A stretch of DNA of 64,000 bases. It comes from Eudorina sp. 2006-703-Eu-15 (taxonomy: Eukaryota; Chlorophyta; Chlorophyceae; Chlamydomonadales; Volvocaceae). The stretch's first letter is position 1, and each line of letters opens with the position of its first letter. Below the pieces are notes generated by a model. The model saw nothing but the letters and a program-made list of their open reading frames with translations, was not told the DNA's origin and made no database searches. The position numbers and the translations under genes are program-made. Shown here in pieces: positions 1 to 62,000 of the stretch. The stretch covers positions 310,001 through 374,000 of the forward strand of contig BDSI01000116.1 in assembly GCA_003117195.1 (NCBI GenBank). The letters run 5' to 3'.

Positions 1-3000
1 CCCTGTTGGTACTGCACGTACTGCTGCTGCAGTACCTCGCGGTACACCTCAACATGCTCCTCGCCTTGCTCGTGACCTGCGGGGTTAAATCGTTGACGGT
101 TAAACGCAAGCAGAGTACGACATCGTACTCCTACAGCCCCTCCATACCCGCTCCCATGCACAGCACCGCGGCAGTTCGTACCCCGCACAAGTGGCTCTTT
201 CGACCGTCATCACCTCAACATCACCATCAACGGTACTATGCACTCAACCGTACATGCCGTACATGCCGTACATGCTAGACAGCTAGGGAACCCAACTCCA
301 ACGACCCGCGCGTCCTCTTCCGCGCGGCGCTGCCCCGCCACCCTTGCACACTATTTTGTTTTTGTTGTTCCTGTACTGTGGTTGCCCCTCTCACGCCGCG
401 CTCGCTCACTCCGTTCCCCGACTACCCCATCTGTGCATCGCGGCTACCCCTTCCACAACCACAGGTCGGTGATGTATCTGTTCTTTTCGGGTTGGGTCGG
501 GTCCGCTCGTTGCTTGCTGCTGCTGCACCGGCGGCGGCGCGGCCCGCGCCGCCACGCGCCCGCGCCCGCGGTCTCTAGATTCCCATTGCTATGCCGGTTC
601 CTCGCCACGTAAGCATACCGAGTTGTTCTGGGTGTGCCCGGGTTCGCGCTTCGGGTAATTTCCTTTATTTAATTTAACACCCACCCAACAGCCGAGCCTA
701 CCTCCCCCCCTTTCCCCCTACCCCCCCCCGTCCCCCGCTCTGGCAGCAGCACAGTTTGAATGTGTCTAACAATTTCCTGTACAGCTCTCCCCTCCCCTCC
801 CAGCCCGGGTCCCATCTCCCACGCACCCGTGGGCAGCGACACCACCACCCGCCAGGCGCCCTCCCGCAGCGGCCCCCGCAGCCGCGTCTCCCACACCGAC
901 ACCGCCGCCGACCGCAGCGCCCCGCCGTGACGGGCCACCAGCGCCGCCGCCGCCGACCGCAGCGCCGCCGCCACCCGCGCGTCGTCCCGGCCGCCGGGCG
1001 GCAGCGGCAGCGGCGGCAGCACCGACAGGAAGAGGTGCGTCCAGTCGGGGCGGGCGGCAGCGGCCGCGTCGGCGGCGGCGGCGGCGGGGCCGCCCGCCGC
1101 GGCGGGGGCGGAGCGCTGGAGCTCGTCAAGGCAGGTGGTCTGGGGGGTGGGGTGGCGGGTAGGGGTGGGGGTGGGGGTGGGGGTTAGGGTGTGTTGGGAC
1201 TTGGGAGTGGATAGAGGCTGGGGGGGTGGGGATGGGTTGAGGCGGGTAGAGCGCGCGATCATGCAACCGCCCGGAGTGAAGTGCTTCCTCCATACACAAA
1301 GCCAAAGGCTCTGCGTAGAAGGAGTTGCCCCGGCGGTTGTGCCCGGCGTGCTGCACTGCAGTACGGCAGCGTAATGCCGACATCACCATGTACACTTGCC
1401 GTACACATGCCGTGTGTACACACGCCACCGGCATGCGACCGTGTTTCCACACAAGTCGTCGCACTCGGTCTTTCTTGCTGCACCGTGATGTAAACATGCC
1501 GTACACTTGCCGTACGTACGGCATTAACAACAACAAACACGGCAGCCCACCAACGTCTCCTCCAGCTCCTGCATCGCCGCCGACGCCACCGCATCCCCGT
1601 TGCCGCTGTAGCTGGCGGCCAGCAGCGCCGGGTGGCCCAGGCTGCGGACCAGCCCCCGCACAAACAGCCGCCGCAGCGGCGCCGACCGGGCGTCCCGCCG
1701 CTCCACCGCCGTGTACAGGTGCCACTGCCGGTTGCGGCTGGGCCGGTACGTCAGCGCGCCGCCGCCGCCGCCGCCGCCGCCGGCGGCGGCACCGCCGACG
1801 GCGGCGCCGGCGAGGCTGGACAGCTCCAGCAGCGCCGCCGTCACGGGTTCGACGGCGGACATGAAAGTGTCCGACTGGAACGCGCCGCCGTCAGCAGCGA
1901 CGGCGGCGGCGGTGGGTGCCGTAACTGTCGTACCGCTGGCAGTGTGTGTCGTACTGGCGGCGGCGGCGGCGGGCGTGGGGATCCAGCGCCAGCCGAGCCT
2001 CAGCGGGCAGGCGCTGGTGCCCGGGGCCAGGACGCTGACGGTGCCGAAGCCGAGGCGGCGCAGCGCCGCCGCCGAGGATGCTACTGCCGCCGCGACGGCG
2101 GCGGCTGTAGCGCGGCTCTGCTCGACGCCCTGCTCCGCGGGCGGCAGCAGCGCATCCAGCGCGGCCCCGTTGCCGCCGCCGCCGCCGCCGCCGCCGTTGC
2201 CGCCGCCGCCGCTTCCTTCGACGTTGAAGACCGCCGGGCCGGGGTACGACGGTGTACGGCTGTGACGACCGCCGCCATTGCTGCCGCCGCTGCCGCCGAC
2301 GGCCGGCGCGGAGATGGCGATGTGCAGGGTGCCGACGCCGGCGGCGCCGCCCGCGTCCGCCCTCAGGGTGTCGAGCGCGGCGGCCAGGGCGGTGAGGGCG
2401 GCGGGGAGGGCCCCCAGGCGGTCCATCAACAGCAGGGCGCCCAGCCGCTGGGTGGGGGCCGGCGTGTTGGCGGCGGCCGGGTCGTCGTACAGCCACACCG
2501 CCAGCTGGACCCCTGGGTCGGTCCCACAGATCCGCAGGGTCAGGGTCAGGGTCGGGCGGGCCGGGAGGATAAAACAAAGGCTTGCACCCACCATCGCACG
2601 ATCAACTATCACATGAGAGGGGCAGGTTTGCAATGTATCCCCACAACGCAGATCACGTGGAGGGGGGCTCTGGGAGTGTGTGAGGCCGACGGGGCAGCCG
2701 CGTCGCGGCCGTTGCAGTACGACATGGACTTTGCGGCCCCCCCTGGATTGGGTAAAAACCCTTGACCTCCCCCCCTCTAGGGTTCTGGGAGTTGCCCTTT
2801 GTCCCCCTGCCGAGCTATCCCATCCCAGTCCACCAAAGCATTCCGCATCAAGCAAAACCCGCCAAGGGCTGCGAATCGACCAGCCTCCACCCTAACCGCT
2901 CCCCCGACTCCTGCTGCCTGATCCGTGCTGCCGTACAACTGCCAACACCCCCGTACATCCCCCCCTTCACAAATCCCCCGCCCCGGAACCCCCTCCCATC

Positions 3001-59000: not shown

Positions 59001-62000
59001 AGTAATGCACCCTGCCTGAGCTCCGTGAGTGCAAGGGAGGAGGTACCCGGAGGAAAGAGGTGCCCGTCCTGCGCTCTCCCAACCCCCCTGTTGGCGCCTG
59101 GCGAGGGTGCTGCACATGCCGGCCTTGTGCCTTCGCGCTTGTCGGGCGGTGAGGTGGAGGCCGCGGCGCAGCACCCCGGCCGGTAGCCCCCCGTCCACAC
59201 ATTGCGCCCCCAAGCAAGCACGAGGCCGGGATGCGTGCAATCCGGCCCCCCCTACCGCCCTCCCTACCGCCCGCATTTACCCAGACCGCCACTGCACCCT
59301 CGGTGGTTGACACGCAAAACAGGCCCCGAACTAACTCCCGATAGTGCTTGAGTCGCATGACAGATATTTTCCATTTCCCATTCCCCCACCACCACCAGGT
59401 CCGCGTGCAACAGCGCCCCAACCTATCCTCAGTCGGGGCCCCTACCAGGTAGCCGCGCAGCTCGTTGGCCAGCTGCTGCGCCCGCGCCCTGGCAGCAGCG
59501 TACGCCGCCTGGGTGCCAGGGCCAGGCGCCGCCGCCAACGGCTGCGGCTGCTGCGGCTCCGTCTCCCACCCCACCCGCTGCAGAGCGACCTCAGCGTCCT
59601 GCAGCTGCACCACCGCCACCGCCATGTAGCCCAGCGGCGCGGACAGCACCCCGGGCGCCTGCGGCAAGCCGGACGGCAACGAGCGGGTGGGCAGGGGGCC
59701 ACCAAGCGAGGCCGCCGGAGGGGGGGGAAGGGAGGGTTACATCTTATTTAGGAAGTCGGTAAGACACATTCAGGGCAGGGAGAGGGAGCTACCACAGGAT
59801 CGACGTGCGGCTTCGACATACGGGCACACCTAACCAATCCACATGCGTGTTCCCGCCACAGCCCGCCACTGGCCGCTCATCTCCATGCGACCCTCTGAAC
59901 CTCGGGTCCCCGTGAGAGAGAGAGAGAAGAGCGCCCCAGTCGTCCGGCCCCTGCTGCCGCAATAAAACCTTCAGTGCGCCTCGCCACCCGCCCCGCTGCC
60001 CCTGCCCCGGTCCCATCGGGCTGTCCAGTGTCCACGCCAGGGGACGTGGACCAGTCCCTCGTCCCGCCACCCGTCCACCCTTGAGGGGCCCCCACTCCCA
60101 GGCTGCATCCACCGGCGTACCCGGCCTCCCCCCTTAGCGTCAAATTAGACGGGGAACCCGCCCGGGAACCAACCCGATAACCACCCATGTCGGGACCGAC
60201 AAAGACGGCGACGCTTTGACCCCTGTGAGAGCTGCCTCGCGTGCCTCCTGTGTCACCCGTCACCCGCCTCCGTGTTGGGTTTGGGTTTAGGAGGGCACTA
60301 CGTCCCCTGAACCCGCCAACCTCGTGTTGGCTCTCAACCCTGCACCCCTGTTCGCCACACCCCCTGTCATATACTGCGTTATGCTGGGTGTGCCCGGGTT
60401 CGTTCTGCGGGTTGATTTATTTTTTTCAATTTAACCCCCCGTCATATGTGTACGCGTTTCTGTCTCCAACAAAGTAACCCACCCGACCCAACCCCCACAT
60501 GGGGTCTTCCTGTGTACCAGCAATCACCCGCGCGCCGCCGCCTCCGTCCGCCGCGTTCGTCCGCCCCTTCCCCCGTGCCCCCGTGCCCCCCGTCCAAGCC
60601 CCCGTGCCCCTCACCGCGACAAGCAGCGAGCGCGGCGGCCCCAGGAACACCACCCTGGGCAGCAGCGGCCGGCTGAAGACGCTGAACAGCTCCACCGGGC
60701 CGTCGCCCTCCCGCAGCACGTGCAGGCCCGAGTGCAGCACCACCCCCGCCTCGCCGTGCAGGAACGCGTAGTCCAGCAGCGCGAGGGCCTCGGCGCTGGT
60801 GGTGATCTGGCCGCCGCGGCCCGCGTCCGCAATGGCCTTGGCGGCCTGCAGCACGGGACCCGAGTACACGGTGCGCTGGCTCGCCCGGTTGAAGGCCACC
60901 TCGGAGCCGCCCAGGCGGCCGCAGTGGAAGCCGATGCGCACGCGCAGGCCCCTGCGGGGTGGGGTTTAGGGTTTGGGGGAAGTTGGTGGGACGCATTGAC
61001 GCTGCGCTGCTGCTATTCTGTGGGGTGGGGGTTGCGGGTGCGACGGATGTGCCGCGCACACCGTGTACTGAGTGCATTGAAAAGAAGAAATAAACCCTAG
61101 AAGAAGCAACCCGGGCACACCCAGGAGTGTGCTGGGTGGCGGGTGGGCGGTACATGAATAAGAAAAACGCGGCGGGCGGGTGGGGGTTGTAAAAAGGCAA
61201 ACGCCGCGGGTGGGGGAGGTTTAGGGTTTTCACCGCGATCGCGGCGAGGACCGGTGACCCCCGCGGGCGCGGAGTGGAAGCGGTGGGAGCGGCGGCCTGG
61301 TGGGATCGCTGATATGCTGAAAGGTGTCCTGACCCGCCCGGCGGGGCACGAATGCACAATGTGTTATGGAAACCTGAGGCGTGAACTGGCCTAGGTTGTT
61401 GAGATCGCAGCCTCTGCGATCCGCCCTGTCATCCCCTGCAAATCCTCTTCCTTTTACACGTCACATCCGCGTATAAGGGTACAGAGCGAGGTACGGTGCC
61501 GCAAGCTCACCTAAAGATGGGGACCCCGGCCTCTTCCCCGGTCATGACCACCGAGCGCTGGCTCAGCGCCAAATCTCGCCCGCAGGCGCTGACGCGGCCG
61601 CTGGCCCCGGACGAGAACGGCAGAGCCGCCATCGGCGCCGGCGCCGACACGGACACAGCCGCGCCACCCGCTGGTGTGGCTGCTGCGATGGCAGCGGCAA
61701 CACTCATGGCAGAGCCGGCGGCGGCGGCGGCCAGGGAGGCCCCGGACCACACGGCCGTCAGCAGCGCGTGGAAGCTGAGGGCGTCCAGGGGTCCAGGCCG
61801 GTCGTCGGACTGGCAGCTGGTCAGCTCGGAGGTGGACGTGGGGGCGCGCGTGAGGAGGCACTTGGAGGTGGCGGACACGCGGGCAAAGACGGCGGACGGC
61901 GGCAGCGAGGACATCGCGGGCGCGAGGCAGCACTCCGCGGAGGCGCTGCGGCGCAGCCGCGCTGCGGCGCCGCGCGGCGCGGCGCTGATGGAGCTGTCCC

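Follow-up and report, generated by a model that had tools for sequence, protein, structure and literature searches.

Retroposons that lack long terminal repeats (non-LTR elements) carry the marks of target-primed reverse transcription, namely a fixed 3' end, graded 5' truncation and target repeats. The target of L1-type insertion is A/T-rich, and R1/R2, TRAS/SART and the microsatellite-targeting long interspersed nuclear elements (LINEs) are target-specific members of the class. Introners are described, in the passages of PMC9860276 drawn on here, as creating introns through insertion into exons, and the corresponding passages of PMC3088655 report that transposable elements near exons are under-represented in human and mouse. 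Here, we analysed an element of ~45 nt that recurs in introns of a 64,000-nt stretch of the genome of Eudorina sp. 2006-703-Eu-15 (assembly GCA_003117195.1, 181 Mb; contig BDSI01000116.1, positions 310,001 to 374,000). This whole stretch, with a GC content of 67%, is referred to as the window. Judged from sequence comparison, the element represents the 3' terminus of a retroposon family whose copies number in the thousands, most of them truncated at the 5' end. We put at roughly 85% the probability of the whole explanation, in which the family inserts by a target-primed mechanism into C-rich tracts, and placement of its copies beside splice sites follows the strand of those tracts.

A family with a fixed 3' end and graded 5' ends

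A genome-wide search with a 21-nt core of the element, allowing up to three mismatches, returned 4343 matches (2190 and 2153 on the two strands), against two matches (2+0) for the reversed core. The exact core was absent from the viral contigs and prokaryote genome contigs searched. The 3' end of the copies is fixed: the sequence ...CCAATTTCCTAT (ending CCTAT) is followed mostly by ACCCC-like sequence. Upstream of this constant end, the extent of the copies varies, with shared lengths of 96 to 646 nt and many 5' break points, which give copies of between 22 nt and ~1.17 kb, the putative full length. Two copies had 657 nt in common at 91% identity, and loci L062 and L063 had ~1.17 kb in common at 85%. 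L062, L063 and L065 begin at an identical point ~1.17 kb upstream, with differing flanks, and this common start is likely the 5' end of the element. Short stubs predominate at 24 distinct loci found among the first 30 exact-core places listed, where the median length was 42.5 nt and the minimum 22 nt, with 20 of the 24 no longer than 56 nt (the two longest values are lower bounds). Two tail subfamilies, CAGTTTGAATATG and CAGTATAAATATG, were distinguished, and in a consensus RNA fold of the tail GGAGAU..UGGUA pairs with UACCA..AUUUCC.

The longest sense frames in three long copies were 152, 158 and 230 amino acids and gave no Pfam match up to E = 0.1; several frames are open alike in L062 and L063. 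An Rfam scan of four long-copy loci did not reveal the RNA polymerase III small-RNA head (tRNA, 5S or 7SL) of a classical short interspersed nuclear element (SINE), the sole match being a bacterial small RNA at E = 0.6, and we therefore do not class the family among classical SINEs.

Tails also occur in tandem. At 2467-2776 of locus L017 (G000:C3:1723235-1723508) the tail and its C-rich tract are expanded to a 42-nt tandem array with seven tails, which stops 45 nt before a predicted acceptor. Another tandem array, at G000:C24:55160-55921, consists of seven units holding the 80-nt longer tail.

Target sites and placement beside splice sites

Target repeats were sought in 77 copies, 17 of 94 with alignments short of the tail being omitted. 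Exact flanking direct repeats of at least 9 nt were present at 24 of the 77 copies, compared with 6.3% of controls in which flanks of different copies were paired, and repeats of at least 12 nt at 11, compared with 0.9%. The reference used was ~630 nt long, and repeats around the few longer copies are not detectable with it. The repeats are C-rich tracts, among them ACCCCTCCCCTTTG (L059) and CCCCCCCCCCTTTCCTC (L066; this copy also lies within L044), and further ones were recognised by eye at L081-L084 and L103. In the same 77 copies, the base after TAT was A in 88% and the next six were C in 70-88%. Of the 935 exact 19-nt tails in the genome, a count that includes tandem arrays, 676 were followed by NYCC.

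A fixed 3' end, graded 5' truncation and C-rich target repeats together point to target-primed reverse transcription and not to a transposon with inverted ends. In the mechanism we propose, an endonuclease, with an autonomous LINE as the enzyme source, would nick an ACCCC-type tract on its G-rich strand. The DNA end thus released would serve as primer for reverse transcription starting at the ...CCUAU(A) terminus of the element RNA, the copying would mostly halt within about 20-60 nt, and the C-rich target tract would become duplicated. Since a sense insertion would leave a pyrimidine tract between stub and acceptor, and an antisense insertion would not affect the donor, we predict that splice sites remain functional.

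Placement was determined in loci that do not form a random sample: 30 were the first places of the core list, 30 the best matches of a further search, and 8 were added later. Thirteen of these 68 loci (11 overlapping others, plus L063 and L064) were omitted from the placement, coding-signal, exon and intron-remainder counts. The placement counts also omit six tandem rows of L017 and introns that were cut by a locus end or fell outside 150-2500 nt, and score three weak window copies (10377, 17325 and 59744) as absent. Introns were predicted by a purpose-built gene finder with stiff penalties; part of its acetyl-CoA carboxylase (ACC) model was checked against solved structures.

In the resulting set of 180 complete predicted introns and 86 copies, 50 of 54 sense copies lay in the acceptor half of the intron, and 29 of 32 antisense copies, plus one tie, in the donor half (Fisher p = 1.5e-16, the tie counted as donor half). 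Median distances were 70 nt to the acceptor for sense copies and 58 nt to the donor for antisense copies. Fifteen further loci, hand-picked from the core-match list and not used before, behaved similarly: 13 of 15 copies face the nearer exon and 12 lie within 150 nt of it, with two introns cut by the locus end. A test free of any splice model, based on a codon model from ACC exons and on the true 5' starts of copies, revealed a coding signal above 0.2 on the 3' side in 50 of the 85 copies tested, but on the 5' side in 12, the value for random stretches of the same loci being 31%. The difference was seen in the 58 short copies alone (32 versus 9) and in the 27 long copies alone (18 versus 3). 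The orientation rule of the original prediction, i.e. a strand bias coupled to a splice-site bias, is real in the sampled loci, where it was checked with a profile.

Introns in which no copy was found have a base composition that matches this layout, with 49% G at 10-30 nt after donors and 52% C before acceptors, and their C-rich tracts show a strand asymmetry like that of the copies (odds ratios 10-22). With G prevailing downstream of donors and C upstream of acceptors, copies come to lie near splice sites with the 3' end toward the exon. Because the tracts of copy-free introns are equally strand-asymmetric, the orientation rule is mostly explained by target choice. In the window, as originally noted, the plus-strand genes yielded no copy in a profile search. 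With copies masked, sense CCCCYC tracts occur at 6.1 per kb in ACC introns (6.7 without an intron filled by a minisatellite) and at 0.96 per kb in plus-strand genes; this scarcity partly helps to explain the missing copies there.

In 55 loci, all 95 profile matches lay outside predicted exons. Of the C-rich tracts of these loci and of the window, 6-14% are exonic, so the chance of zero exonic copies ranges from 4e-3 to 4e-7, depending on the tract definition. Exonic insertions were probably removed by selection, and the gene finder may also refuse to call an exon in a disrupted stretch.

Alternative explanations

The original prediction held that introns were founded or colonised by a mobile unit with inverted ends; colonisation by a mobile unit is borne out by our data, founding and inverted ends are not. 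Had the element acted as an introner, inserting into exons and supplying a splice site, copies would be expected to be intronic, near splice sites, orientation-dependent and present in thousands, as they are. However, the 81 copy-bearing complete introns all retain at least 146 nt of non-element DNA (at least 153 nt in the 69 outside the window, whole copy lengths subtracted), so that the copy in them neither makes up nor created the intron, and we conclude that the introns existed before copies colonised them. The repeats at their flanks are C-rich tracts, copy lengths differ through 5' truncation, and four introns hold two or more copies, which makes an introner hardly credible. A DNA transposon or miniature inverted-repeat transposable element with its inverted ends near donor and acceptor is suggested by the proximity of antisense copies to donors and of sense copies to acceptors, and one window intron, 17276-17845, may hold both orientations (one by profile, one by eye). 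Yet only the 3' end is conserved in the copies examined, the 5' ends being graded over ~20-1170 nt; repeats flank single copies (part of them, and C-rich); and 77 of the 81 copy-bearing introns contain just one copy. We give this possibility next to no weight.

The position of the window sense copies, 26-152 nt before acceptors, would also suit a conserved splicing signal held there by selection and not mobile at all. Such a signal is very improbable given that 32 of the 86 intronic copies are antisense, that upstream extensions are variable and target repeats occur at part of the copies, and that 99 of 180 introns lack a copy in a sample enriched for copies. As to the role in acceptor recognition that was also considered possible, placement is largely set by the distribution of C-rich tracts. 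Insertion steered to intron ends by the splicing or transcription machinery, beyond tract sequence alone, is a more serious alternative, though still an unlikely one. It would account for copies being closer to splice sites than expected from tract positions, but insertions occupy both strands, and both ends of introns, in the way that the strand of the tract predicts, and the copies in L030 and L059 lie hundreds of nt from a predicted exon and still occupy ACCCC-type targets.

Several observations weigh against target-primed insertion into C-rich tracts as the whole explanation. Repeats of at least 9 nt are lacking at 53 of 77 copies, and the folded tail has no covariation support or compensatory changes. 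Within 150 nt of a splice site we found 37 of 50 sense copies versus 27.8 expected from CCCCYC tracts, and 25 of 31 antisense copies versus 20.8; for ACCCC tracts, the values were 37 of 51 versus 26.1 and 22 of 28 versus 15.0, respectively. Copies thus lie nearer than tracts predict, and tract quality or another factor must add to tract density. In the window, antisense tracts are only moderately rarer in plus-strand genes than in ACC introns (4.55 versus 7.55 per kb, the minisatellite intron excluded), and the second minus-strand gene is tract-poor (0.80 sense and 2.68 antisense tracts per kb) yet contains one profile-supported copy. The gene model assigns only 818 nt of the 55 loci to intergenic DNA, and some of the "introns" are therefore intergenic. 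Finally, no autonomous LINE with the tail of the element was found: four LINE-like open reading frames (ORFs) lack it at their 3' ends, it does not occur in the region 2-5 kb downstream of one more endonuclease match, and by eye none of 16 endonuclease matches (contigs C1-C12, among the matches listed) has an exact core within 10 kb downstream.

The genome contains 147 endonuclease-domain matches above the cut-off, and the open frames that hold them are unusually long, reaching 4984 amino acids among the matches listed. In L089, a LINE-like ORF is followed by a long (CA)n stretch, without the element tail, and the 3' part of this ORF recurs upstream of a truncated copy in L061. The twelve best reverse-transcriptase loci were also considered as a source of a partner; by DNA comparison they form two families, and in each family the single frame examined belongs to an LTR element.

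Compared with described systems, the family most resembles SINEs and other non-autonomous non-LTR retroposons in its fixed 3' end, 5' truncation, thousands of copies, target-site duplications at some of them and lack of a Pfam domain in the longest frames of three long copies. It differs from them in that most sampled copies are stubs of 20-60 nt despite a putative full length of ~1.17 kb, in that the target is C-rich, and in that neither a poly(A) tail was seen nor a small-RNA head found. A sequence-preferred insertion site is shared with R1/R2, TRAS/SART and the microsatellite-targeting LINEs, but the target here is a loose intronic C-rich tract and not ribosomal DNA, a telomere or a simple microsatellite. 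As with introners, in the account taken from PMC9860276, a repeated mobile sequence is tied to introns, but the copies here lie inside larger introns. Orientation biases near exons are common to our family and the intronic transposable elements of human and mouse, as far as the passages used from PMC3088655 go, but the sampled copies here are concentrated within 150 nt of predicted splice sites. That a family should be concentrated near splice sites for a simple sequence reason, in contrast to the human and mouse picture drawn from those passages, is the most interesting consequence. In the literature searched, no retroposon of this kind was described; since subscription papers and preprints were mostly outside the search, this is not proof.

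We tentatively suggest, at somewhat less than even odds, that this is a retroposon at home on the margin of splice sites, which would target the flanking C-rich tracts and rebuild the pyrimidine tract by duplication, so that thousands of insertions into the riskiest part of the intron spare genes and may provide raw material for new acceptors. How a mobile element exploits splice-flanking DNA, whether splicing is altered, and what share of intron-associated repetition is due to target choice rather than to intron founding can all be tested.

The element and its host genes in the window

Both halves of the element occur in the window far above chance, with five matches each at up to three mismatches versus none in 100 shuffles. 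With a profile derived from copies outside the window, 13 copies were detected, at scores of 12.4-64.5 bits; nothing else exceeded 8 bits, and the reversed window gave at most 6.8 bits. The recurrence of the element in introns of two minus-strand genes, as first reported at 16 positions, was upheld: all 16 positions are intronic in the gene model, and 13 of them coincide with the profile-supported copies, which all lie in predicted introns of these two genes. The remaining three are weak: 10377 has a degenerate core with four mismatches and scores below 8 bits, and 17325 and 59744 are below both thresholds and were recognised by eye alone. Distances to splice sites agree with those given before, at 26-152 nt from acceptors for sense copies and 24, 47 and 70 nt from donors for antisense copies. 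The copies and the gene that hosts most of them are as follows.

736..780, plus strand: antisense copy, 3' end 47 nt from donor, predicted intron 1-826 (44.4 bits; both core halves)
827..18031, minus strand: part of the ACC gene with 23 predicted exons; most copies lie in it (gene model and structure match)
3387..3448, minus strand: sense copy, 53 nt before acceptor, predicted intron 3334-4012 (51.0 bits)
5527..5566, minus strand: sense copy, 28 nt before acceptor, predicted intron 5499-5821 (28.2 bits)
5980..6034, minus strand: sense copy, 71 nt before acceptor, predicted intron 5909-6685 (25.2 bits)
7351..7404, plus strand: antisense copy, tail intact, 70 nt from donor, intron 7028-7474 (64.5 bits)
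9038..9083, minus strand: sense copy, 149 nt before acceptor, intron 8889-9655 (35.6 bits)
9829..9875, minus strand: decayed sense copy, 44 nt before acceptor, intron 9785-9977 (14.7 bits)
10377..10407, plus strand: decayed antisense copy, middle of intron 10097-10619 (four core mismatches; below 8 bits)
10920..10944, minus strand: decayed sense copy, 62 nt before acceptor, intron 10858-12137 (12.6 bits)
12598..12620, minus strand: decayed sense copy, 124 nt before acceptor, intron 12474-13192 (12.4 bits)
14487..14508, minus strand: decayed sense copy, 152 nt before acceptor, intron 14335-14677 (14.0 bits)
17325..17350, minus strand: possible sense remnant, weak, near acceptor, intron 17276-17845 (by eye only; not in profile search)
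17785..17821, plus strand: antisense copy, 24 nt from donor, intron 17276-17845 (27.4 bits)
18121..18142, minus strand: decayed sense copy, 89 nt before acceptor, predicted intron 18032-19078 (12.7 bits)
59744..59790, minus strand: possible sense remnant, weak, predicted intron 59659-60614 (by eye only; not in profile search)
60978..61013, minus strand: decayed sense copy, 26 nt before acceptor, predicted intron 60952-61510 (13.9 bits)

The ACC part of the gene model joins 23 exons into an open 1740-amino-acid product. An 871-amino-acid piece of it matches the solved acetyl-CoA carboxylase 5csk over residues 46-850, interrupted by small gaps (E = 5.2e-226), and this match backs the introns that surround seven of the 13 copies; introns around the other six are those of the gene model alone. 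Two frames of the second minus-strand gene gave no Pfam match, and its earlier name, "cyclase", is unconfirmed. Rfam and tRNA scans of the window gave no match.

Other repeats were observed in the window. Predicted ACC exon 4013-4479 ends in (GTCT)n at 4013-4156, read as CLSV repeats, and this end is probably a gene-model error. A C-rich minisatellite of ~15 nt (CCCCCTCCCCCATATC-like) at 11177-12122 fills most of ACC intron 10858-12137. Between genes, a long array of an 8-nt repeat occupies 50731-51331, and a poly-C run of roughly 70 nt lies at 51850-51920.

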